Shown in pieces: positions 23,442 to 55,526 of a DNA stretch of 64,000 bases (its first letter is position 1; each line of letters opens with the position of its first letter). Origin of the DNA: Deferribacteraceae bacterium V6Fe1 (GTDB lineage Bacteria > Chrysiogenota > Deferribacteres > Deferribacterales > Deferrivibrionaceae); NCBI GenBank assembly GCA_022813675.1, contig CP063375.1:1252001-1316000 (forward strand), in the 5' to 3' direction. A model generated the notes under the pieces. It was not told where the DNA came from. It ran no database searches and worked only from the letters and a program-made list of their open reading frames with translations. A program made the translations under genes and the position numbers.

Positions 23442-23450
23442 GTGGGGACT

Positions 23451-24494
23451 ATGTTTGGAAAAAAAGAAAATTTGATTGGTATTGATATCGGTAGCTACTC
23501 TGTTAAAGTACTTGAGCTTAAGAGTAAAAAAGTCGGCTATGTTTTAAAGGGGATTTCTGAGGTAGTACTGCCTGAAGATGTTATTTCTGAGGGGAGTATA
23601 GTTGACTATGCTGAGGTTACAAGGTGTGTCAGAGAGGCATTTCAGAAAGGGAACTTTAGTCATAAAAAGGTGGCATCAGCGCTAAAAGGGACCGGAATTA
23701 TTGCCAAAAAAGTTACCTTATCTATTGATGATGAAAAGCAGTTTCAGGAAACATTCAGATGGGAGGCAGAGCAGTATATAGGGAAAAAAGATCTTGATGA
23801 TTATAATGTTGACTATGAAATAGTTGGAAATGTTAAGCAGGGTGAAAATGTTGATGTAGTAATTGCGGTGGCAAGAAAAGATTTAATTATGGATATATCT
23901 TCAGTTTTGGAGTCTGCTGGCTTAAAGCCTTCTGTTATCGACCTTTCTATATTTTCACTGATAAATGCTTTTGAAGTAAACTATGGAGTGGAAGAGGAAG
24001 TAGTTGCGATTGTTGATATTGGCAATTCTTCAACGCAGATAATATTTGTTAAAAATGGGGTTTATGAATTCTCCCGTGAAGTTGATTTCGCTGGGAAAAA
24101 TTGTATAGAAATGATTCAAAAAAATATGGGCGTTACTCGAGAGGATGCAACTGCAAAGTTGTTTGATATAGAGTCTATCGAATATGATGAAGAGTTGCAA
24201 AGCGTTATAAAGGATTTTGGCCGTCAACTGGCTATGGAGGTTAAAAACTCCATAAGTATGCTACTTACAAGTGGTCAGTTGAAGACAAGTAGATGTTATA
24301 TTTGTGGCGGTGGCTCAGCTATTTACGGCCTTAAGGACATTTTGGAGCAGACTCTTGATATGAACGTCAGTCAATTTAATCCTTTTGCAAATATAGATAT
24401 TGATAAGAGTTTGGATATGGAATTTATAAATAATAATTTATATAAATTTAACTGTGCTTTAGGGCTTGCCCTAAGGAAGGTGGATGATAAATGA
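23451..24494 (+). CDS. pilM: Type IV pilus assembly ATPase-fold protein PilM
   Basis: PilM is a cytoplasmic actin-like ATP-binding protein that docks on PilN. It has 347 residues. The nucleotide motifs are IGIDIGSYSVKVLEL at the start, IVDIGNSSTQIIFV and CGGGSAIYGL. The ATG at 23451 follows AGGTGGGG; an in-frame GTG at 23442 overlaps that site. It opens the pilMNOPQ operon, which overlaps from gene to gene. Confidence 0.95.
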   Translation: MFGKKENLIGIDIGSYSVKVLELKSKKVGYVLKGISEVVLPEDVISEGSIVDYAEVTRCVREAFQKGNFSHKKVASALKGTGIIAKKVTLSIDDEKQFQETFRWEAEQYIGKKDLDDYNVDYEIVGNVKQGENVDVVIAVARKDLIMDISSVLESAGLKPSVIDLSIFSLINAFEVNYGVEEEVVAIVDIGNSSTQIIFVKNGVYEFSREVDFAGKNCIEMIQKNMGVTREDATAKLFDIESIEYDEELQSVIKDFGRQLAMEVKNSISMLLTSGQLKTSRCYICGGGSAIYGLKDILEQTLDMNVSQFNPFANIDIDKSLDMEFINNNLYKFNCALGLALRKVDDK

Positions 24495-25036
24495 TAAGGA
24501 TTAATTTACTTGCCTCAAAAAAGAGAAAGAAACTCAACAAGGGTATTTACGAATTAATACTCTTTTTGATGATTGTTGGCTTTTTGGTGGCTTCCTGCTT
24601 TATAATCAATTCATCTTTGGATAATCAGATTCTTATTGCAAAAAATGAGGTCAGTAAGCTTGATAGAGAGTACAAACGTTTAAGTAAAATTAAGAAAGAA
24701 GTCGATGGATTTAAAAAGAGAAAAGAGGAATTGCAAAAGAAAATTGATTTGGTAAAGAGATTAAAGCAGGGGCAAAAGGGTTATTATGAGATATTACGTA
24801 ATCTCGAGTACGCCATGCCTGAGGACGTATGGATATCTAAATTCGATTTTCAGGGTGATAGTGTTAATTTGAACGGTTCATCCCTTAGGACAGCCTCAGT
24901 AAATGAATTTATACTTAATCTTTATGCCACTAAAATGTTTGACAATATTGATCTTAAGGTTGTCAAAAAGGTAACTGTGGAAAATATGGATATAAATGAC
25001 TTTAATATCACCGCAAAAATAAAGATAGGTGGATGA
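24491..25036 (+). CDS. pilN: Type IV pilus assembly protein PilN
   Basis: A bitopic inner-membrane protein of the pilus alignment complex. It has 181 residues. It begins with the PilN signature INLLASKKRKK, which binds PilM, then a membrane helix (about residues 23-45) and a periplasmic coiled coil plus a small fold. It overlaps pilM by four bases. pilO starts just two bases after the stop. Confidence 0.92.
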   Translation: MIRINLLASKKRKKLNKGIYELILFLMIVGFLVASCFIINSSLDNQILIAKNEVSKLDREYKRLSKIKKEVDGFKKRKEELQKKIDLVKRLKQGQKGYYEILRNLEYAMPEDVWISKFDFQGDSVNLNGSSLRTASVNEFILNLYATKMFDNIDLKVVKKVTVENMDINDFNITAKIKIGG

Positions 25037-25037
25037 T

Positions 25038-25613
25038 ATGTTGGATAAATTGTTTAAGATACCGTTTAAATTTCGAATAATTGTAGAAGTTTTGATACTT
25101 CTGATTATTTCAGGTGTTTATTACTACTTTTACTATACACCAAAAATTGAAGAGATTAACAAGCTTGCTAAAGAATATGACAGCTTGGTAATCAAGGTTT
25201 CTCAGCTTAAACCATTTGAGCTGAGCTACGATAAGTTTAAAAAAGAGGTTGAGCTTTTGGAAGACCAATTTCAGACCGTCTTAAAAATATTGCCTAACGA
25301 GAAAGATTTTAATGTTTTGTATGATGAAGTTGTAGGGTTGGCCGAAAAAAGCGGGGTGAAAGTGACTCTGTTTCAGCCTGGCGGCGAAAGCAGAGTAGAT
25401 GAGTTTCACTCAAGAGTTAATTTCAGTATGAACTTTCAGACATCATATGTGGAATTTATAAATTATTTATACAGGCTTAATTATCTTGATAAAATAATTA
25501 ACCTCAATTCATTTTCAATAGCTCCTCAAAAAGATAAAGATGGTGCTTTGACATTGAATGTAAAAGCTTCATTGAATTCTTACAGGTTCAACGTACCTAA
25601 GGAGGGGAACTAA
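25038..25613 (+). CDS. pilO: Type IV pilus assembly protein PilO
   Basis: Inner-membrane partner of PilN with the same layout: short N-terminus, one helix (about residues 15-32), coiled coil and a periplasmic ferredoxin-like domain. It has 191 residues from the ATG at 25038. A GTG at 25029 in frame overlaps the GGTGG ribosome-binding site and is less likely. The stop overlaps the start of pilP by one base. Confidence 0.92.
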   Translation: MLDKLFKIPFKFRIIVEVLILLIISGVYYYFYYTPKIEEINKLAKEYDSLVIKVSQLKPFELSYDKFKKEVELLEDQFQTVLKILPNEKDFNVLYDEVVGLAEKSGVKVTLFQPGGESRVDEFHSRVNFSMNFQTSYVEFINYLYRLNYLDKIINLNSFSIAPQKDKDGALTLNVKASLNSYRFNVPKEGN

Positions 25614-26150
25614 TGAATGTTAAAAAAGTAGCTTTTTTACTGTTAATATTGCTTATTTTTGGTTGTGACCAATTAATTCCCAAAATCGATTTTGATAAAA
25701 GGGGTGCAAAAAAGCAAAATCAAGCCTATAGAAGTTGATAGTACGGCTATCGTCGCTCAAGGTGAGGAATTGAAAAAGCTCTTTGAAAGTCAGTATAAAC
25801 CCCTTGATTACAAAAATAAGAAAAATCCTTTTGTGTCAGTTATTGATGTATATAAGGAAAATTTGTCAAGCAGTGCTTCCGGCGGGGATAACCCGCTTGA
25901 GAGTGTAGAGCTTGATCAGATAAAATTAACCGGATCACTCAGCGGCGAAGTTGGAAATGTCGCTGTTGTTCAAGTCGGACAGCAGGTGTTTTATGTTAAA
26001 GAAGGGGATAAAATAGGTAAAAATAGTGGTGTGATAATAAATATTACAACTGATACAATGAAGGTAAGACAGGTTGAATCAGATATTTTTGGTAATATCA
26101 GAACAGTTATTAAGGAGATTAAGTTGGTAAATAAGGAGGAAAATTTATGA
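25613..26150 (+). CDS. pilP: Type IV pilus lipoprotein PilP, frame broken by an apparent one-base shift
   Basis: PilP links PilNO to the secretin PilQ. The gene is read in two frames. From the ATG at 25613 (AGGAGGGG just upstream) the first frame encodes a clear lipoprotein signal, KKVAFLLLILLIFGC, then LIPKIDFDK, and meets a stop at about 25739. The PilP body is in the +1 frame and contains NPFVSVIDVY, the IKLTGSLSG start of the PilP beta domain, and VFYVKEGDKIG. It continues to 26150. The switch must lie near AAAAGGGGTGCAAAAAAGC at about 25697-25716. If the extra base is removed, the protein is about 178 residues, normal for PilP. A sequencing error, a real mutation or a programmed shift are all possible. 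Confidence 0.85.
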
Positions 26151-28552
26151 GAATTTATAAATTATTTGTAGTTGCAGTTTCGCTTATTTTGATAATTGCC
26201 TGTGCTTCAAAGAAGGAGCAGGCAGGCAATATGATTTTGCAAAAAAAGATTAAAGCTATTTCTGTTGAGAAGTCGGCTGAAGGGAAATATGTATTAAATT
26301 TGACAGGCGACAATAGCGTAAAATACAAGATTTATTATTCTAAGTCTCCTTATAAGCTAACCGTTTTGGCTGCTGATTCCTTATTTAGTGAAGAAGCAAT
26401 GAAGTATAGTTATAACGATGAGATTATCACAAAAACTGCTGCATTTATTTCTGAGCAAGGGGCTACTTTAGAGGTCTACCTTAATAGTGATGCTAATTAC
26501 ACCTTCGATGAAAAAGATGGTAACTTAAAGGTTGATTTACAAGTAGTTAAGTCTGAAATTAAAGATTTAGGTGACGCAGGTATAGAGTTTAACTCGGCTG
26601 AGTTTGAGAATGTAGAGCTTGGAAAGAATGTTTTAAATATATCAAACCTTTCTGATGACAACAATTTACTTTTAAAGATTGGCTTAGATGGTGTTGTAAA
26701 ATACGATTTTGGTTACCTGAATGACAAATTGCTTTACATAGATATATTTGATGTTACCAGTCAGATTACTGAGAAGACACTGTCAGGAAAAGGGATAGTA
26801 AGAAGAATAAAGATTGGCAGTTATTACCCTCCTCAAAAAGTCAGATTCTTAGTTGATATAAATATGTCAAACCCTGTTTTTGCAGGTCAAAATGGCAAAT
26901 ATCTTATTTTGTCAAATGAAGTTACTAATGTTCCGAGAGATGACAAGTATATAACCAGTATAGAGTCTATAGCAGTAAAAAAGTACCAAAGTATAATAAT
27001 CAAACTTACCGGTAATCCGGTTTATACTAAAAAAGTTGTCAATGGCAACCTCGTGTTGGAGTTTGGAAAAGGATTTAAAGCCCTAAAAAGTGTAAAAAAT
27101 ACAATGGCTTTTGCTAACCTGCCGTTTAGAAAAGTTACTGTAGGTAAAATAGATGATAAACTTTCTATTATAGTTGTGCCTAACGGTGAAATATATGCAA
27201 AGGTTGAGAAAGTGCCTGAAGGTGTAATGATAAGCGGTAGTTTTAATAACTTCTCCAAGGCTGAGGACGTGCTAAAAGCACAAGAGATACAAGAAACTGC
27301 TAAGAAAGAAGATAAAGGTGTTAAGACTTACGATAAGAAAGAGCTTGTCAGCTTAAGTATTAAAGATATGGATGTAAGGGAGGCGATCAGACTTATCTAT
27401 TTTGGCCGCAATAAAAATATAGTATTTGGTAACGAAGTGAAGGGTAATGTAAGCCTTTTTGTTAAGAATGTTCACTACCAAAAAGCATTGGATATTATCT
27501 ATCAGGAAAATAATCTTATTGAGATCGATGAAGACAATGTTGTTTGGGTTATTAGCAAAGCGAGAAAAGATGAAATAGAGTCCAAAAAACTTCAGGACAT
27601 TAAGGCAGCTCAACAAAAGCAGGAGCTTGAGCCGTTAGTAACTGAAATTATCCCTGTTAACTATTCAGCTGCAAGTGACTACAAAGGGGTTTTAGACTCT
27701 GTATTGTCTGCGAGAGGGAAATTACAGATTGAAAACAGAACGAATAGCTTTGTAATTACAGATACAAAGGAGAATATAGAAAAAGCTAAGAATCTCTTAG
27801 TGGAAATAGATAAACCGACACCTCAAGTGACAATTGAGGCAAGGATAGTTGAGGTTTACGATTCCAATAATACTAATTTAGGTATTCAGTGGGGTGGACA
27901 GGTTAATAACAGCACTACCGCATATAATTTTCCGGCTACAGTAGGTTTGCAGGGGAACACAGGTGCTACAAGCCCTTCTGGAAATGGATATTTAGTAAAT
28001 TTGCCGGTCGCATCACCTGCTGGTGCTTTTGCATTATCTTTAGGTAATTTGTCAAAGACGTTTGCTCTTGATGTGGCACTGTCTGCACTTGAGTCAAGAA
28101 ACAAAGCTAAGACAATTTCAAGCCCAAGAATTACTACTCTTGACAACGAAGAGGCAGAAATAAAAAGCGGTGGTACGGCAGTAATAGTGCCTACTGGTGA
28201 TAACACAGCTACTCAAGAGATTGATGTAGGTATAAAATTAAAAGTTAAGCCTCATATTACAGCAAACAAAATGGTTTATATGGAAATAGAGGTGGAGAAA
28301 AGCTCGCTTGGTTCAGTAACTGGAAATACAGCAACTACCGAAGAGAAAAAAGCAAAGACACAGGTACTTCTGGCTAATGGGGATACAACTGTAATCGGAG
28401 GAATTTATGAGGATGAGCAATCTGTGATTACTCAACAGGTCCCTGGGCTTGGAAATATACCTATTTTAGGATGGTTATTTAAGTCAAGAAGCAATATATC
28501 CTCTAAAAAAGAATTGCTGGTATTTTTGACGCCTAAGGTTGTAGAAAGATAG
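26147..28552 (+). CDS. pilQ: Type IV pilus secretin PilQ
   Basis: Outer-membrane secretin through which the pilus exits. It has 801 residues and a lipoprotein-like signal (LIIAC at about residue 20). In order it shows AMIN-like beta regions (about 30-350), a linker, an STN/N-terminal secretin domain starting near SIKDMDVREAIRLIYF (about 405), and a further N domain. The secretin domain runs from about VTIEARIVEV to the C-terminal VPGLGNIPILGWLFKS and KKELLVFLTP. It overlaps pilP by four bases. PilB, PilC, PilT and pilins are not in the window. Confidence 0.95.
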   Translation: MRIYKLFVVAVSLILIIACASKKEQAGNMILQKKIKAISVEKSAEGKYVLNLTGDNSVKYKIYYSKSPYKLTVLAADSLFSEEAMKYSYNDEIITKTAAFISEQGATLEVYLNSDANYTFDEKDGNLKVDLQVVKSEIKDLGDAGIEFNSAEFENVELGKNVLNISNLSDDNNLLLKIGLDGVVKYDFGYLNDKLLYIDIFDVTSQITEKTLSGKGIVRRIKIGSYYPPQKVRFLVDINMSNPVFAGQNGKYLILSNEVTNVPRDDKYITSIESIAVKKYQSIIIKLTGNPVYTKKVVNGNLVLEFGKGFKALKSVKNTMAFANLPFRKVTVGKIDDKLSIIVVPNGEIYAKVEKVPEGVMISGSFNNFSKAEDVLKAQEIQETAKKEDKGVKTYDKKELVSLSIKDMDVREAIRLIYFGRNKNIVFGNEVKGNVSLFVKNVHYQKALDIIYQENNLIEIDEDNVVWVISKARKDEIESKKLQDIKAAQQKQELEPLVTEIIPVNYSAASDYKGVLDSVLSARGKLQIENRTNSFVITDTKENIEKAKNLLVEIDKPTPQVTIEARIVEVYDSNNTNLGIQWGGQVNNSTTAYNFPATVGLQGNTGATSPSGNGYLVNLPVASPAGAFALSLGNLSKTFALDVALSALESRNKAKTISSPRITTLDNEEAEIKSGGTAVIVPTGDNTATQEIDVGIKLKVKPHITANKMVYMEIEVEKSSLGSVTGNTATTEEKKAKTQVLLANGDTTVIGGIYEDEQSVITQQVPGLGNIPILGWLFKSRSNISSKKELLVFLTPKVVER

Positions 28553-30867: not shown

Positions 30868-31545
30868 ATGTTAACTTCAACTGAAGTGTCAAGCCAATAT
30901 GGAACAACAAGCTCAACAAGGGCTGAGCCAAAAAAAGAGCTGAATAAAGATGATTTTTTAAATTTGATGGTTACACAGCTTAAAAATCAAGACCCTCTAA
31001 ACCCTTTGGATAATAATGAATTTATCAGTCAGACTACTCAATTTTCATCCCTTGAACAGTTAATTAATATTGGAGAAAGTATTAAAGAGTTAGCTGAAAG
31101 TCAAACCAATGGCAGTATGAATAATAACTTGTACTCAGCGTCAAACTTTATTGGCAAAGAAGTGAAATATTTCAGTGATACAATAAACTTAAATGATGAC
31201 GGTACTTTGATTGGTTATGAGCTTGATGATATACCAGCAAGTTTGTCACTAAAGATAATAGATGAAAACGGTAATGCGGTTGCAGATATAGTTCCTTCTT
31301 CGACATCATACGGGATGAATGAGATTAATTGGGACGGATTAAATGCAAGTGGAGATAAGCTTCCAAATGGTAAGTATAAAGTTGTAATAGATGCTTTAGA
31401 TGCCTCAGGCAGCCAAATCCATTACAGAACATATACCAGTGGAATAGCAAGTGGGGTGAGCATGCTTAATGGTAATCTGAAATTTAGTGTAGATAGTAAT
31501 GAAGTATCTTCAGACAGTATCTTTGCTGTGTATGAAAATAAGTAA
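30868..31545 (+). CDS. flgD: Flagellar hook assembly protein FlgD
   Basis: FlgD is the hook cap scaffold needed for FlgE polymerisation. It has 225 residues. The N-terminal signature is LNKDDFLNLMVTQLKNQDPL and LEQLINIGESI. The C-terminal part has a tudor-like/FLG-type beta region with the NEINWDG and LPNGKYKVVIDA motifs. AGGAGG precedes the ATG. It is followed 13 bases later by flgE. Confidence 0.95.
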   Translation: MLTSTEVSSQYGTTSSTRAEPKKELNKDDFLNLMVTQLKNQDPLNPLDNNEFISQTTQFSSLEQLINIGESIKELAESQTNGSMNNNLYSASNFIGKEVKYFSDTINLNDDGTLIGYELDDIPASLSLKIIDENGNAVADIVPSSTSYGMNEINWDGLNASGDKLPNGKYKVVIDALDASGSQIHYRTYTSGIASGVSMLNGNLKFSVDSNEVSSDSIFAVYENK

Positions 31546-31558
31546 TTAGGAGGCATAT

Positions 31559-33967
31559 ATGTTAAGGTCGCTTTATGCAGGTGTAACAGGTTTGCAACAA
31601 CATCAAAAAAGCATGGATGTGGTTGGTAATAATATAGCCAATGTAAACACGGTTGGATATAAAGGGAGCAGGGTAGTATTTTCCGATTTGATGAGTCAGA
31701 CTTTGTCTGTGGCAAAAGCTCCGGGTGATGGTACCGGTGGTGTAAATGCCAAACAGATCGGTTTGGGTAGTAAACTTGGAGCTATTGACGTTAACTTTAA
31801 TCAAGGCACATTACAGACCACAGGGGTGACTACCGACCTTGCTCTTCAAGGTGATGGCTTTTTTGTGGTAAAATCTTCAAACACAGAGCAGGCTTATTAC
31901 ACAAGAGCAGGCAATTTTACATTTGACAAAAATGGTTATTTGGTGACGCCATCCGGTTTGATAGTACAAGGGTGGATGAGAGATTTGGAGACCAATACCC
32001 TTTCGGCAAATGGGCCTGCTGGCGATATAAGGATAGATGAAGGTTACAAGGTAATTGAGCCGAGAGCCACTACGGAAGTTAAGGTTGCAGGTAATTTAAG
32101 TACCGAAGCAAGTCCTACAATTTTATCTTATCAAACACTGCTATCTTCACTTGATGATGCTGATACCGACTTGAGCAATACATTTGGCTATGGCGGTGAA
32201 AGGTTTAGCATGCTTACAGGGGAGACTATTAGGATAAAAGCCGATGCAAATCTTAATACACAAGTCAGCAACTTATACAATGAGATTGATCAAGATTTGG
32301 GACTCGCGGGCTCTACTATTCAAATATTTGCAAACGGCAGTTCAGGCAGTGTAAATATAGCATCAACAGATACTTTGAGCGACGTTATTACAAAGATTAA
32401 TAATGAATTTTCAACACTAAGTGCCAGTCTTACATTAGGGCTTAGCTCAAATGGTATACTGCAACTTTCAGGTACCGGTACTGTCAGCTTTGCCGGTGGT
32501 ACCAGATTTATTAACTATTTAAGCGAAATAGACGGGACATTAAATAGTGAAACAAAATTAGCAAATACAAAGCTTATTGCTGAGAAAGAGCTTGTATATG
32601 GTGAAGATATAAAAGAGATAGGACAGATGATAGATGAGATAAATGCTCTCATTCAAAATAACATATCCTCAGGCTTTCAAGCAACATTTGATTCAACAAC
32701 TGGGAAAATATCTTATGATAATACTGGTGGCTCAGATGGTATCACAGGTTTTACAATAGAAAAATCATTTTCAAGCGATGTTTTTAGCAAGACTTTTGAC
32801 ACATTTGACAGGCTAACCACCGGAGCAAACACTACTTCTGAAACCGTATTCAGATATGCAAAAGATACGGATACATTAGACACACTCTATTCCGAGACGG
32901 GGGAATATTTAAATATAAGCACTTTTCCGCTTGAAGTAAGTGCAGTAGTCGGCGGTGTGGATGTAGCTGCTCAAACTGTTCAGACAACTGACACTTTACA
33001 AGATTTGATGGCAGTTATCGAAAATGAAGTATTGGGTTTTAGAGATGATACTACGGGATTAGATTTTGTGTCTCTGGAAAACGGTGTAATAACAGTTAAG
33101 GGGGAAAAAGGTATCCCTAACAGCATTGATAATCTTGTTATAAAAAATGGTGACAATACGACTTTCAATAATTATATGCAGTATAGTATCGTTCAAAATG
33201 CGGATGGCGGTCAACTTATAACAAGTCAATCTATTTACGACTCACAGGGGAATGAGCACATTATTAATTATCAGTTTGATTTGTATGATGAAAGCAGAAA
33301 TATTTGGAAACTTTCCGTTGTGCCGGCAGTCAGTGATGAAAATGTTGTCCTAAAAAATGGTCAAAATGTTCTTGATAACCTATATTTGCAATTTAATCCG
33401 GATGGCTCCTTTAATAAATATATGTCGATAGATTTAGCTGGTAATGAAACGGTTATTACAAATGCAGTTTTTGATTTGGTGCATAATACAGGTGCTTACA
33501 CTGTTTCAGATGTTAATATAAGACTTGGAACCACTGATAACTTTGACGGCTTAACATTAACCTCACGACCAACTACAATCACCCAACTTGAGCAAGACGG
33601 TTATAAACAGGGGACACTTGAGGGTTTAAGTATCAATAGAAGCGGTGAAATATTAGGTACTTATGACAATGGTGAGGTTATTGAGATAGGGATAGTCGGT
33701 ATTGCAAGATTTAATAATAATGAAGGCTTATTAAAAATGGGTGATTCACTTTTTGCTGAAACTGTAAACTCAGGTACAGCTGTTATGGGTAAAGCCGGTT
33801 TAGGTGGAAGAGGGGTTGTTGAAGCAGGAGCCCTTGAAAATTCAAATGTTGATTTAGCACAGGAATTTGTTACAATGATAACCACACAAAGGGGTTATCA
33901 GGCAAATTCAAGGGTGATAACCACAAGTGATGAGATGCTGCAAGAATTAATGAGTTTGAAAAGGTAA
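31559..33967 (+). CDS. flgE: Flagellar hook protein FlgE, long form
   Basis: 802 residues, about twice the length of the enterobacterial hook protein. It has the flagellar rod/hook N-terminus (MLRSLYAGVTGLQQHQ, VVGNNIANVNTVGYKGSRV) and the C-terminal NSNVDLAQEFVTMITTQRGYQANSRVI. The FlgE-specific stretch FVVKSSNTEQAYYTRAGNF lies near residue 100. The extra length is in the exposed middle domains (about 150-560), with Ser/Thr/Asn-rich repeats of beta structure. Long hook proteins also occur in epsilonproteobacteria. Confidence 0.95.
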   Translation: MLRSLYAGVTGLQQHQKSMDVVGNNIANVNTVGYKGSRVVFSDLMSQTLSVAKAPGDGTGGVNAKQIGLGSKLGAIDVNFNQGTLQTTGVTTDLALQGDGFFVVKSSNTEQAYYTRAGNFTFDKNGYLVTPSGLIVQGWMRDLETNTLSANGPAGDIRIDEGYKVIEPRATTEVKVAGNLSTEASPTILSYQTLLSSLDDADTDLSNTFGYGGERFSMLTGETIRIKADANLNTQVSNLYNEIDQDLGLAGSTIQIFANGSSGSVNIASTDTLSDVITKINNEFSTLSASLTLGLSSNGILQLSGTGTVSFAGGTRFINYLSEIDGTLNSETKLANTKLIAEKELVYGEDIKEIGQMIDEINALIQNNISSGFQATFDSTTGKISYDNTGGSDGITGFTIEKSFSSDVFSKTFDTFDRLTTGANTTSETVFRYAKDTDTLDTLYSETGEYLNISTFPLEVSAVVGGVDVAAQTVQTTDTLQDLMAVIENEVLGFRDDTTGLDFVSLENGVITVKGEKGIPNSIDNLVIKNGDNTTFNNYMQYSIVQNADGGQLITSQSIYDSQGNEHIINYQFDLYDESRNIWKLSVVPAVSDENVVLKNGQNVLDNLYLQFNPDGSFNKYMSIDLAGNETVITNAVFDLVHNTGAYTVSDVNIRLGTTDNFDGLTLTSRPTTITQLEQDGYKQGTLEGLSINRSGEILGTYDNGEVIEIGIVGIARFNNNEGLLKMGDSLFAETVNSGTAVMGKAGLGGRGVVEAGALENSNVDLAQEFVTMITTQRGYQANSRVITTSDEMLQELMSLKR

Positions 33968-33974
33968 AATAAAT

Positions 33975-34002
33975 TAAAGAAAACTATTTGAATTGTCGAT
34001 AA
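33975..34002 (+). promoter_or_regulatory. Possible sigma-28 (FliA) promoter before motA
   Basis: TAAA at 33975-33978, a 16-base spacer, then GTCGATAA at 33995-34002. The flagellar sigma-28 consensus is TAAA, N15, GCCGATAA, so there is one mismatch and one extra spacer base. It lies about 90 bases upstream of motA, in the gap after flgE. It would place motA and the downstream export genes in a late flagellar class. Confidence 0.55.
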
Positions 34003-34018
34003 GATAGATTATAATATG

Positions 34019-34050
34019 TTGGCAGGTAAGGCTAAACCTTTATCTGCCAA
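34019..34050 (+). other. Stem-loop in the motA leader
   Basis: TTGGCAGGTAAGG (34019-34031), loop CTAAA, then CCTTTATCTGCCAA (34037-34050). The two arms pair over about 13 bases with one G-T pair and one bulged A. No clean T run follows (TTTAAAATTTT). It may be a terminator for flgE transcripts, or a 5' leader structure of an mRNA starting at the sigma-28-like site. Confidence 0.6.
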
Positions 34051-34092
34051 TTTAAAATTTTAAAAGCTACAGAGAAAGGTTCAGGAGACTTT

Positions 34093-34860
34093 ATGGATAT
34101 TGCTACGCTGATAGGTATTATTCTTGCATATATTCTTGTTTTTGCTGCTCTTTTAATGGGCCCCGGTGTAGGGGTTTATATTGATATCCCTTCAGTGCTT
34201 ATCGTAATTGGGGGTACGGCTGGTATCATTCTGATGAGTTGGCCTCTTAATAAGGTTTTGAATGTTATGACAATCGTTATGAAAACTTTTCTGTTTAAAC
34301 TGGAAAGTCCGGCTGATTTGATTGGAAAATTAGTGGATTTTTCTCAACGGGCAAGAAGGGATGGTATTTTAGCCCTTGAATCAGCTGAAGATGAGATTAA
34401 TGATGAATTTTTAAAAAAGGGGATAAGGCTTGCAGTTGACGGCACTGAGCCTGAGGTTATTAGAACAATTCTTGAGACTGACCTTTCATATATGCAAGAG
34501 AGACACAAAGAGGGTGCGGCAATTTTAACGAGTATGTCAACTTTTGCTCCGGCTATGGGGATGATTGGTACGTTAATCGGTTTGGTTGCAATGTTACAGA
34601 CAATGAGTGATCCAAGCTCAATTGGTCCTGCGATGGCTGTTGCACTTTTGACAACATTTTATGGTGCTATTATTGCAAACCTTTTTGCAGCACCTCTGGC
34701 TGAGAAGTTAAAAACCAGATCAGCTGAGGAGACTATGTTAAGAGAGATTATGATAGCAGGTATTATGGCTATTCAGGCAGGAGATAACCCAAGGATAGTT
34801 GAACAGAAATTAAATGCATACTTACCGCCAAAATTAAGGGTATCACAGTTTGATAAATAA
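34093..34860 (+). CDS. motA: Flagellar motor stator protein MotA
   Basis: 255 residues, four membrane helices. The conserved proline-glycine region STFAPAMGMIGTLIGLVAM is present, as is the cytoplasmic loop with the charged residues used in rotor contact (SQRARRDGILALE). The gene order motA-motB-fliL is common. AGGAGA precedes the ATG. Confidence 0.96.
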   Translation: MDIATLIGIILAYILVFAALLMGPGVGVYIDIPSVLIVIGGTAGIILMSWPLNKVLNVMTIVMKTFLFKLESPADLIGKLVDFSQRARRDGILALESAEDEINDEFLKKGIRLAVDGTEPEVIRTILETDLSYMQERHKEGAAILTSMSTFAPAMGMIGTLIGLVAMLQTMSDPSSIGPAMAVALLTTFYGAIIANLFAAPLAEKLKTRSAEETMLREIMIAGIMAIQAGDNPRIVEQKLNAYLPPKLRVSQFDK

Positions 34861-34868
34861 GAGGGTAT

Positions 34869-35618
34869 ATGGCTGATAAAAAATGTCCTGAATGTAAAGC
34901 CGGTGCTCCGGAGTGGATGGTTACCTTTTCCGATATGACTACGTTGCTTTTGACATTTTTTGTTTTACTTCTTTCTATGGCTTCTCTTGACCAAAAGAAG
35001 ATAAAAGAGGCTTTGGGTTCTTTGCAGGGCGCTTTGGGAGTCCTTGAAGCTGGACAAAAATCTGAGATGGGTAAAGAAGAAATTTTGTCAAGGATGGACT
35101 TTGTTTCCAAAGCAAAACAAACAGAAAGTAGATTATTAAGCGGAGTTAGAAATTATATAGAGCAGGCAAATTTGTCTTCGACTATTTCTGTTGTCAAAAC
35201 AGAAAAAGGGATTTCAGTCAGGATAATGGATTCTATACTATTTGGTCCTGGTGATGCAGATTTGCAGGATGCTGCAAAACCTATTTTGGAAAAGTTGGCA
35301 GGTGTAATAAAAGATTCTCCTTACAATATAATGGTTGAAGGGCATACGGATGATATCCCTATATCAACTCCACGCTTTCCCTCAAATTGGGAGCTTTCTA
35401 CAGCAAGGGCAGTAAGCGTGGCAAAATATTTTATATCTGTCGGGGTAAAGCCTGATATCTTATCTGTGGCAGGTTATGCACAGTATCATCCGGTTGTGCC
35501 TAATATCACTCCTGAGAATAGAGCTAAAAATAGAAGAGTTGAAATAAATTTTGTAAGCCCTGAGCTTGCTGAAGCAAATAAAAATATTTTTGAAGATACA
35601 GAATCCGGAGGGTTATAA
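34869..35618 (+). CDS. motB: Flagellar motor stator protein MotB
   Basis: 249 residues. The N-terminal CPEC motif is followed by PEWMVTFSDMTTLLLTFFVL, in which Asp22 is the ion-accepting residue in the single membrane helix. The plug/linker is followed by an OmpA-like peptidoglycan-binding domain with MVEGHTDDIPI and NRRVEINFV. Whether the stator uses protons or sodium cannot be told. The stop overlaps the fliL start. Confidence 0.96.
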   Translation: MADKKCPECKAGAPEWMVTFSDMTTLLLTFFVLLLSMASLDQKKIKEALGSLQGALGVLEAGQKSEMGKEEILSRMDFVSKAKQTESRLLSGVRNYIEQANLSSTISVVKTEKGISVRIMDSILFGPGDADLQDAAKPILEKLAGVIKDSPYNIMVEGHTDDIPISTPRFPSNWELSTARAVSVAKYFISVGVKPDILSVAGYAQYHPVVPNITPENRAKNRRVEINFVSPELAEANKNIFEDTESGGL

Positions 35619-36130
35619 TGGCAGAAGAAAAAGAAGTTACTGAACAGGAACAGCCGAAAAAGAAATCTAAGTTTAAGCTAATATTAATTATTTTAATTGT
35701 TTTGGTACTTGCAGGTGGTGGAGCAGCTGCTTATTTTTTAATTTTTGCTAAAAAGCCTGCTGATACAAATGCAGAGCAAATTGCTGCAGGCACTGCACCT
35801 AAAAAACCAAAAGCTGATGCTTCTACGATCGGTCCATTGTACTCTTTTGATAGCTTTATTGTTAATTTGGCTGACCCGGGTGGTACAAGATATCTGAAGG
35901 TTAGTATGCAAGCGGAGCTTGATTCAGATAAATTGGCTGATGAGATAGAAAAAAGAAAGCCTCAAATAAGAGATATAATATTAACAGTACTCTCTTCGAA
36001 AACCTACGCGGAAGTCAGCACAGCGCAGGGGAAGTTGGCCTTAAAGCAGGAGATAATGAGAAGAATAAATTTAACTTTGACCAGTGGAGCAATAAGAAGT
36101 ATATATTTTACAGAATTTGTTTCACAATAG
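35618..36130 (+). CDS. fliL: Flagellar basal body protein FliL
   Basis: 170 residues with a charged N-terminal tail, one membrane helix (about residues 21-42), a Pro/Ala linker and a periplasmic FliL domain (YSFDSFIVNLADPGGTRYLKV, then RDIILTVLSSKTYAEV and the C-terminal IRSIYFTEFVSQ). FliL associates with the stator ring. The start overlaps the last base of motB. Confidence 0.93.
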   Translation: MAEEKEVTEQEQPKKKSKFKLILIILIVLVLAGGGAAAYFLIFAKKPADTNAEQIAAGTAPKKPKADASTIGPLYSFDSFIVNLADPGGTRYLKVSMQAELDSDKLADEIEKRKPQIRDIILTVLSSKTYAEVSTAQGKLALKQEIMRRINLTLTSGAIRSIYFTEFVSQ

Positions 36131-36137
36131 GGGTGAT

Positions 36138-36425
36138 ATGATAGATCTGGAAAATGTTTTAAACAGATACGGAAACGTCTTACTTAATGTTGATGTGGAA
36201 TTGGGTAGAAAGTTGGTAAGTATTGGTGAAATGTTAAGTTGGGAAAACGGGACGATAATCAAATTATCCAAGACCTCCGGTGAATCTGTTGACTTTTTGG
36301 TAAATAAAAAACCTGTAGCCGTTGGAGAAGTAATGGTCATCGATGAAAAGTTTGCTATCAGGATAACTGATGTTTTGACAAAAGCAATACTTTTTGAATT
36401 AAGTAAAGATGGGTTGTATGATTAA
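36138..36425 (+). CDS. fliN: FliN-type C-ring protein, short
   Basis: 95 residues from the ATG at 36138 with GGGGTGA upstream; a GTG-type or ATG extension into fliL (from 36117) is possible. The SpoA domain is seen (LLNVDVELGRKLVSIGEMLSW, TIIKLSKTSGESVDFLVNKK, AVGEVMVIDEKFAIRI). It is only a SpoA domain without the FliN N-terminal extension. No fliM is in this operon. It overlaps fliO by eight bases. Confidence 0.88.
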   Translation: MIDLENVLNRYGNVLLNVDVELGRKLVSIGEMLSWENGTIIKLSKTSGESVDFLVNKKPVAVGEVMVIDEKFAIRITDVLTKAILFELSKDGLYD

Positions 36426-37164
36426 AAAGGTAATACTTTTTTTACTTTTTTCAGTTTTTGCTTTTACTTCACAATATAAGCTTGACCTTAGTGATGACCA
36501 TATAAAGCTTGTTATTCCTGCAAACTCTAACTTATTTGTGTCTGATTCTTTGCAAGAAAATGTATATTCTCTTGTACTAAAAGGGAATATTTCTGTGAAT
36601 GAGGATATTTGGGGGTATAACATATCAAAAATCACTTCTCAGTATGACGGGAAAAATACAAAATTGGATTTTTATTTTGAAAAAAAAGGGTTAAAGCCAG
36701 AAATAGAATATAAAGACGGAAAAATGGAAATTGATTTTATATTTTCAAGTGTGCCAACTAAAGAAAAAAGTGTATACTTGAGAATGTTTTTAGGCATACT
36801 GATAATTCTTGTCTTGATTCTGGTACTTTATTGGTTTTTAAAGCTTATGCTAAAAAGAAATATCTCTTCTGATATACCTGGGATAGGTAGGCTACTTGGA
36901 AAAGTGGATATTATGCCTGGCAAAACGCTTGCGTTTTATGAGTTACTTAATACTATTTATCTTGTTGGTATTACTACTGATAATATTACTTTGTTAGATA
37001 AAATTGAGGATGAAATAGTGTGTGATAGGATAAAGGAAGGATTTTCAAGAAAAAAAGACTTCTCAAGTTATTTAAAGTTTTTTGGAAAAGAGATAGATAG
37101 CACTGAAATTGATATGACGCAAGAAATTATTAAAGAGAAGGTGGAAAAATTAAAAAGAAAATAG
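36418..37164 (+). CDS. fliO: Flagellar export apparatus protein FliO
   Basis: 248 residues from the ATG at 36418; an in-frame ATG at 36409 is possible. It has an N-terminal signal-like segment, a periplasmic beta region, one strong membrane helix (FLGILIILVLILVLYWFLKL at about residue 127) and a cytoplasmic domain. FliO is poorly conserved, so the call leans on position before fliP plus its single-helix layout and the cytoplasmic stretch LGKVDIMPGKTLAFYEL. It overlaps fliP by 16 bases if fliP starts at the AUU codon. Confidence 0.8.
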   Translation: MIKKVILFLLFSVFAFTSQYKLDLSDDHIKLVIPANSNLFVSDSLQENVYSLVLKGNISVNEDIWGYNISKITSQYDGKNTKLDFYFEKKGLKPEIEYKDGKMEIDFIFSSVPTKEKSVYLRMFLGILIILVLILVLYWFLKLMLKRNISSDIPGIGRLLGKVDIMPGKTLAFYELLNTIYLVGITTDNITLLDKIEDEIVCDRIKEGFSRKKDFSSYLKFFGKEIDSTEIDMTQEIIKEKVEKLKRK

Positions 37165-37892
37165 TATTTTTTCTTCTTTTCTGTTTACCTATTTTTGCCT
37201 TGGCTGCTGATTCTATACCTTTGCCTACAATCAATATAGGTGTAGGGCAGGCTCAATCACCTCAAGACGTATCTGTAACTTTACAAATAATTTTTTTACT
37301 AACTATTCTTTCACTTGCTCCTGCTATTCTAATTTTGCTTACATCTTTTACAAGAATTATAATTGTATTTTCCTTTCTAAGGAATGCAATGGGGACACAG
37401 CAAATGCCTCCAAATCAAGTATTGGTTGGCCTTGCTCTCTTTTTGACATTTTTTATAATGTCACCTGTATTTACTGAAATTAATGAAAAGGCACTTGCTC
37501 CTTATTTAAATAATAAGGTTAACTTTACAACCGCTTTGGCGGAGGCTAAGAAGCCTTTGCGGAAATTTCTTTTGTCAAATACAAGAAAGAAAGATGTCCT
37601 AATGTTTTTGGAGATTTCAAAATATGAAAGGCCGAAGACCGCTGATGATATCCCTGACCTTGTATTAGTTCCCGCTTTTGTGGTAAGTGAGATACAGACT
37701 GCATTTGAGATGGGTTTTTTACTATTTTTGCCGTTTTTAATAATAGATTTTGTAGTGGCCAGTGTTTTATTGTCTATGGGGATGATGATGTTGCCACCTG
37801 TTATGATTTCTTTGCCATTTAAAATTTTGCTTTTTGTCCTTGTTGATGGGTGGTCTTTGATAATCGGTTCAATAATAAAGAGCTTTATGTAA
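37149..37892 (+). CDS. fliP: Flagellar export apparatus protein FliP, apparent AUU start
   Basis: FliP forms part of the export gate. From 37149 it is 247 residues. Motifs are LTSFTRIIIVFSFLRNAMGTQQMPPNQVL and PDLVLVPAFVVSEIQTAFEMGFLLFLPFLIIDFVV (the FliP signatures). The frame upstream of 37200 encodes KKKIVFFLLFCLPIFALAADS, a good cleavable signal of the FliP type. The only start codon before that segment is ATT at 37149, with AAGGTGG five bases upstream. An in-frame stop is at 37131. The usual TTG candidate at 37200 would remove the signal. I therefore favour the AUU. Confidence 0.9.
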   Translation: MKKKIVFFLLFCLPIFALAADSIPLPTINIGVGQAQSPQDVSVTLQIIFLLTILSLAPAILILLTSFTRIIIVFSFLRNAMGTQQMPPNQVLVGLALFLTFFIMSPVFTEINEKALAPYLNNKVNFTTALAEAKKPLRKFLLSNTRKKDVLMFLEISKYERPKTADDIPDLVLVPAFVVSEIQTAFEMGFLLFLPFLIIDFVVASVLLSMGMMMLPPVMISLPFKILLFVLVDGWSLIIGSIIKSFM

Positions 37893-54181: not shown

Positions 54182-54209
54182 TTGACATTTTTTTTAAAAT
54201 AAGTAAATG
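54182..54209 (+). promoter_or_regulatory. Promoter before the aminotransferase gene
   Basis: TTGACA (54182-54187), a 16-base spacer and TAAATG (54204-54209). A second TTGACA lies 15 bases upstream (54167-54172), and TTAGTTAA/TTAACTAA repeats (54136-54143, 54159-54166) flank this region. If transcription starts near 54217, the ATG at 54207 cannot be used and the start is 54240. Confidence 0.55.
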
Positions 54210-54239
54210 TCGACAATCGACAATATTAAGGAGATTAAA

Positions 54240-55526
54240 ATGGGGCCATCAAACATCAATCTTAATTTAAACGTAAGAGGTTTGCCGGTATCGGCAACAC
54301 TTGACATTAACGAAAAAAGCAACAAACTTTTAGCGGAAGGGAAACAGATTTACAAATTTGGGCTGGGGCAGTCACCTTTTCCTGTGCCTCAGGTCGTTGT
54401 TAATGAACTGAGAAATAATGCACACCAAAAAGATTATCTTCCCGTCAGAGGGTATCAACCGTTGAGAGAAGCTATTGCAAATTATTTGAATAATGCTCAC
54501 AATTTAACTTTTTCGAGTGAGGATATAATTGTAGGGCCAGGGTCAAAAGAGTTAATGTTTATAATTCAGCTTGTTTACTACGGTGACTTACTTATACCTA
54601 CTCCAAGTTGGGTTTCGTATGCTCCTCAAGCTGAAATCATTGGAAGGCATGTTTACTGGCTTAAAACTTCCGAAGATAACAAATGGCTTTTAACTGCTGA
54701 GGAGTTGGACAAATTTTGCAGCAGTGACGCCACAAGGCCAAGAATATTGATACTAAATTACCCCAATAACCCCACAGGTTTGACATATACCAAAGACGAA
54801 CTAAAGTCTATTGCCGAAGTTGCAAGAAAATATGGTATTATAGTTTTGTCCGATGAGATTTACGGAGAAACTCATCATGATGGAAATCATTATTCAATAG
54901 CAAAATATTATCCCGAAGGAACGATAATTAGCACTGGATTGAGTAAGTGGTGTGGTGCCGGCGGATGGAGACTTGGCACATTTGCATTTCCTAAAAATTT
55001 AAGGTGGCTTCTTGATGCAATGGCAGTTGTGGCAAGCGAGACATTTACTTCAACCTCAGCACCTATTCAATATGCTGCAGTGAGGGCATTTCAGGGTGGC
55101 ATAGAAATAGAAAGATATCTTTGGAATTCAAGAAGGATATTAAAAGCTATCGGAAATTATATGTATGAAAAGTTTATAGGTACGGGAATATCAGTAGACA
55201 AGCCTGAAGGCGCTTTCTATATGTTTCCGAGTTTTAAAAATTTTGCGGATAAATTAAAAAGCAAATCTATTTTAAACAGCAGTCAGATGTGTTCCCAAAT
55301 TCTTGAAGATACAGGGGTAGCAATTTTGCCGGGCTCAGCTTTTGGCAGACCTGCGGATGAGTTTACTGCAAGGCTTGCATATGTTGATTTTGATGGGGCA
55401 AAGGCTATTGCATCGGTAGAAGTCATGTCAAAAGATAAGGAACTTGACACAGAATTTTTAGAAAAAAACTGTGAAAAGGTTATAATAGCAACCGAAAGAC
55501 TTTGCGATTGGTTTAATAGTCTTTAA
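54240..55526 (+). CDS. Class I/II PLP-dependent aminotransferase
   Basis: 428 residues from the ATG at 54240 with AAGGAG eight bases upstream; the ATG at 54207 lies over the predicted promoter. It has the fold type I pattern with [15 protein letters not shown], the PLP Lys in [16 protein letters not shown] and the C-terminal R in TARLAYVDF. It resembles aspartate/aromatic aminotransferases; the substrate is not shown. It ends against the convergent rlpA stop (four-base overlap). Confidence 0.88.

Follow-up and report, generated by a model that had tools for sequence, protein, structure and literature searches.

On our reading of the sequence, pilP of V6Fe1, a heat-loving, metal-breathing bacterium, has on balance probably been broken, and its function lost, by a recent change of one base in an unremarkable poly-A run. 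The locus lies in the window analyzed here, a 64-kb stretch (positions 1,252,001-1,316,000) of the single-contig genome of 2,358,333 bp, where a pilM-pilN-pilO-pilP-pilQ operon spans window positions 23442-28552 (Table 1). The pilP site falls between pilO and the secretin gene pilQ, as expected for the PilP family (PF04351). A first-pass annotation of this DNA had described the other pil genes as intact, and the neighbors pilM, pilN, pilO, and pilQ are indeed full-length, as judged by open reading frames and Pfam matches.

Table 1. Features of the pilMNOPQ operon of V6Fe1 and of the pilP frame junction, in window coordinates.
Feature	Position	Strand	Basis
pilM, intact, 350 aa	23442..24494	+	Pfam PilM_2 E 1.6e-58
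pilN, intact, 181 aa	24491..25036	+	Pfam PilN E 8.4e-16
pilO, intact, 194 aa	25029..25613	+	Pfam PilO E 5.2e-20
Ribosome-binding site of pilP, AAGGAGGGG	25599..25607	+	read from sequence
pilP first frame: lipoprotein signal, lipobox, linker start, out-of-frame tail, TGA	25613..25738	+	
Shine-Dalgarno-like AAAAGGGG, shared with the sister genome, where no shift is needed	25697..25704	+	
A6 run, site of frame loss; A5 in sister genome G002	25708..25713	+	
pilP second frame: linker remainder and PilP domain, without a credible start of its own	25713..26150	+	
pilQ secretin, intact, 801 aa	26147..28552	+	Pfam Secretin E 1.5e-45

The first pilP frame opens at ATG 25613, encodes a lipoprotein signal ending ...LIFGCD (the lipobox), and runs for 41 codons before TGA 25736-25738; its zero-frame codons across the A6 run are GCA AAA AAG. 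The body of the protein is encoded in the +1 frame relative to the signal, which stays open until the stop at 26148-26150 and has TTG 25692 as its first listed start. This second frame matched Pfam PilP (PF04351) with 47.4 bits (cut-off 25.6, E 2.5e-12), and it matched no NCBIfam family at E up to 1. The lipoprotein signal and the PilP domain of this family therefore do not share a frame in V6Fe1. The first-pass annotation had anticipated much of this arrangement: a short first frame with a good ribosome binding site (AAGGAGGGG) and lipobox, a second frame holding the entire PilP body without a good start, a junction made of AAAAGGGG and an A6 run, and the need for a one-base shift between the two parts. 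All of these points held, the last as a single gap relative to the sister genome G002 at the A run.

Two ways in which V6Fe1 might do without the shift were considered and rejected. Separate translation of the PilP body would have to begin at TTG 25692, which no Shine-Dalgarno sequence precedes, or at GTG 25704, which AAAAGGGG directly abuts; neither has a usable ribosome-binding site. A second pilP copy elsewhere was sought by a search of the V6Fe1 genome, which gave a single match and hence no further copy.

We searched for PilP in 39 genomes, comprising V6Fe1 and 38 relatives. Matches were obtained in 17 of the relatives and not in the other 21, and in all 17 the signal and body share one frame (for one of them, G009, the frame was called by direct reading and not by the motif filter), so that a split frame occurs in 0/17. 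The nearest relative, G002, is probably D. essentukiensis and shows 90-93% nucleotide identity over pieces of the window. In the pilP region, 601 aligned bases of the two genomes show 97.3% identity, and the only gap among them lies in the A run: V6Fe1 has A6 at 25708-25713, G002 has A5, and pilP of G002 is one open frame. A second relative of the genus, G001, has no such A run at this site. The intact orthologues in close relatives and the absence of the indel from them agree with a pseudogene made by a recent frameshift. Asp follows the lipobox cysteine in V6Fe1 PilP and in nine of the 17 relatives; the others have Gly, Thr, or Val. Under the Lol rule, Asp at this position would agree with the protein staying in the inner membrane.

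Of the 15 substitutions that separate the two pilP genes, 13 are synonymous and 2 are non-synonymous, which indicates that selection acted on the frame until very recently or continues to do so. The 32 codons before the A run carry 1 synonymous and 0 non-synonymous changes, and the 146 codons after it carry 12 and 2. Taking G001 as the outgroup places both of the non-synonymous changes on the G002 side. The remainder of pilP after the run is undecayed, an observation that fits a recent knock-out and, equally well, an assembly error.

A residual assembly or sequencing error, with an intact pilP in the living strain, is the alternative that deserves most attention, and we regard it as possible but clearly less probable than a real mutation. 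A homopolymer is the usual place for such errors, and one leftover per ~380 kb would be plausible for a hybrid assembly. According to the accessible part of the type-strain paper, the genome of V6Fe1T (Deferrivibrio metallireducens) was built from Nanopore and MiSeq data (PMC11896075), and the contribution of short reads argues against an uncorrected error. The site also argues against one, as it is unique in the genome and its A6 run is short. We also count against this alternative that Nanopore errors left uncorrected mostly remove bases.

The noise of the assembly was gauged by a frameshift scan in which 464 kb of V6Fe1, including the window, were compared by protein with ~0.76 Mb of G002. 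The scan yielded 508 ORF pairs passing filters (some of them shadow ORFs) and ~380 kb of aligned codons. A frame switch appeared in three of these pairs, and pilP was the sole interior coding frameshift among them; the other two candidates were set aside, one lying upstream of its own gene's start codon and the other in a 99-aa ORF judged non-coding. Coding A/T runs of at least 5 bases had the same length in both genomes in 2432 of 2441 cases (333 kb of aligned DNA), where “coding” means inside stop-to-stop ORFs, so that some of the nine unequal runs precede a start codon and one adjoins a stop codon. We reject general frameshift noise on the basis of the scan together with these equal run lengths, and a single interior coding frameshift in 508 pairs indicates that the V6Fe1 assembly is not generally error-prone. 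It further speaks for a real mutation that the only gene affected encodes part of a dispensable appendage, as would be expected of a tolerated change. Conversely, unequal homopolymer runs of all classes lean toward greater length in V6Fe1 (17 longer and 6 shorter than in G002, several of them being larger gaps), a tendency that favors an error and possibly reflects slight over-calling in V6Fe1 or under-calling in the sister genome. The reverse scan (510 pairs) gave nine frame-switch candidates in G002, as judged from translations. We also observed a gene of 792 aa, PAS-like at its start (G000 1,228,822-1,231,200), that is open in V6Fe1 and occupies two frames in G002.

A further alternative is phase variation, in which the run would toggle pilP on and off within the population. 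The one-base homopolymer difference between sister species and its position near the 5' end are compatible with such a switch. However, contingency loci carry unusually long or variable tracts, and here the run is only A6, with no long repeat tract and no such run at the site in G001. Among the coding A/T runs of at least 6 bases, 815 are equal in G002 (605 of 6, 180 of 7, 29 of 8, and 1 of 9), and runs of six are thus common and stable. We therefore consider phase variation most improbable.

Recoding at the junction was evaluated against systems in which it is well known. In dnaX, an A_AAA_AAG heptamer directs -1 programmed frameshifting, and the zero-frame reading GC A AAA AAG at V6Fe1 pilP has the register of this heptamer. 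Unlike dnaX, however, pilP needs a +1 shift: a -1 shift does not join the two frames, as -1 reading at the run gives GCA AAA TCA AGC CTA TAG and stops at TAG 25729-25731, after five codons. Neither the split frame nor the site is conserved in any of the 17 relatives, and none of them retains a shift. Since no relative needs a shift and the heptamer points to -1, which stops, programmed frameshifting at pilP seems unlikely. At the prfB +1 frameshift site, a Shine-Dalgarno-like element has a spacing similar to that of AAAAGGGG, which lies four bases before the slip codon AAA. There the A site holds a stop or slow codon; at pilP it holds AAG in the zero frame, which is neither a stop nor a known slow codon.

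Low-level rescue would be a looser form of the same idea, in which some full-length PilP would come from a +1 slip of tRNA-Lys within the A6 run, AAA to AAA, or from the loss of one A by RNA polymerase during transcription. Pairing at AAA in the P site can be restored on the AAA at +1, after which 145 codons can be read up to 26150. Against this, AAAAGGGG is present in G002 too, where no shift is needed. The pilP run resembles sites of poly(A) transcriptional slippage in being an A run in a broken gene, but it has six bases without conservation in the 17 relatives, whereas the part of the slippage study available to us places the appearance of selection against A/T slippage at ~nine bases in many genomes (PMC1088944). 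Rescue of this kind is very unlikely, and the more specific proposal that ribosomal +1 slippage on A6 is helped by AAAAGGGG, an accidental prfB-like layout without a stop codon rescuing a recent frameshift, is slightly less likely still; at most, rescue is possible as a low-level accident. The first-pass annotation had left four options standing. Of them, real loss of pili now appears the most likely and assembly error the second. Programmed frameshifting is disfavored by the 17 relatives that need no shift and by the heptamer pointing to -1, and a phase-variable homopolymer by the 815 equal runs.

If pilP has been knocked out, the extra A may have arisen by replication slippage, either in the lineage of the strain or during cultivation. 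Translation would end at 25736-25738 without yielding a lipid-anchored PilP. PilP joins the inner-membrane PilMNO complex to the PilQ secretin, and because of this bridging role type IV pilus assembly should be abolished or severely impaired, even though the pil genes examined besides it are intact. In the portions of the literature available, pilP/pilT mutants of meningococci lack pili, and those of P. aeruginosa retain low piliation (PMC4471445). The available part of the type-strain paper yielded no recorded pilus phenotype for V6Fe1T. We also found no earlier report of the V6Fe1 pilP frameshift among the matches listed for literature on Deferrivibrio or on pilP frameshifts.

The further pilus parts that we identified are full-length. 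They comprise two T2SSE ATPases (580 and 563 aa), a PilT-like ORF of 388 aa, a PilC-like ORF of 409 aa beside the T2SSE ATPase and PilT-like ORFs, a prepilin peptidase (265 aa), and several pilin-like ORFs, including ones of 71 and 72 aa. The names PilB, PilT, PilC, and PilD were assigned by family and neighborhood.

The state of pilP bears on how V6Fe1 respires metals. The type-strain paper, in its accessible part, reports that V6Fe1T reduces insoluble Fe(III) minerals and puts forward two “e-pilin” genes as likely contributors to Fe(III) reduction (PMC11896075). That suggestion should be weighed against the true state of pilP. If the gene is truly broken, few or no type IV pili would be expected, yet insoluble Fe(III) is reduced; type IV pili would then not be needed for Fe(III) reduction in V6Fe1. 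If the split is instead an error, a correction of the public genome is called for.

Several further observations concern the genome more widely. The flagellar genes examined (G000 294.4-300.8 kb, L102 8377-14754, and window 30868-37892) look full-length, and we found no frameshift in the flagellar parts read that would account for missing flagella; V6Fe1T is described in the accessible part of its paper as non-motile and without flagella (PMC11896075). Identity to G002 declines from ~99% just upstream of the window to 94% and then ~87%, which is uneven against a genome-wide ANI near 90% and perhaps reflects recombination or a strongly conserved ribosomal region. V6Fe1 and G002 differ by one base at 54230, immediately ahead of GGAG and another ATG (window 54207-54240), which suggests that translation of an aminotransferase gene begins further downstream than the listed ATG 54207. 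At G000 about 899.6-900.7 kb (L105 4613-5691), the peptide VVIPSSQVINSN recurs at regular intervals in short open frames, a pattern that resembles a translated CRISPR array.

Compared with PilP of type IVa pili (PF04351), an inner-membrane lipoprotein, the V6Fe1 gene shows the pilMNOPQ operon, a lipobox Cys followed by Asp, the PilP domain, and homology to the intact PilP of 17 relatives within the order; it differs in that signal and domain lie in separate frames. A closer parallel to the loss itself comes from a phage-resistant P. aeruginosa mutant, described in the available part of its report, in which a 5-base deletion (pilP I42FS) gives a truncated product (PMC13170266). Both cases combine a small 5' indel (I42 there, ~codon 33-34 here) with a truncated PilP and otherwise intact pilus genes, and pilus genes are commonly hit by losses of this sort, as that mutant illustrates. 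V6Fe1, in contrast, is a type strain with a one-base homopolymer difference and not a selected mutant.
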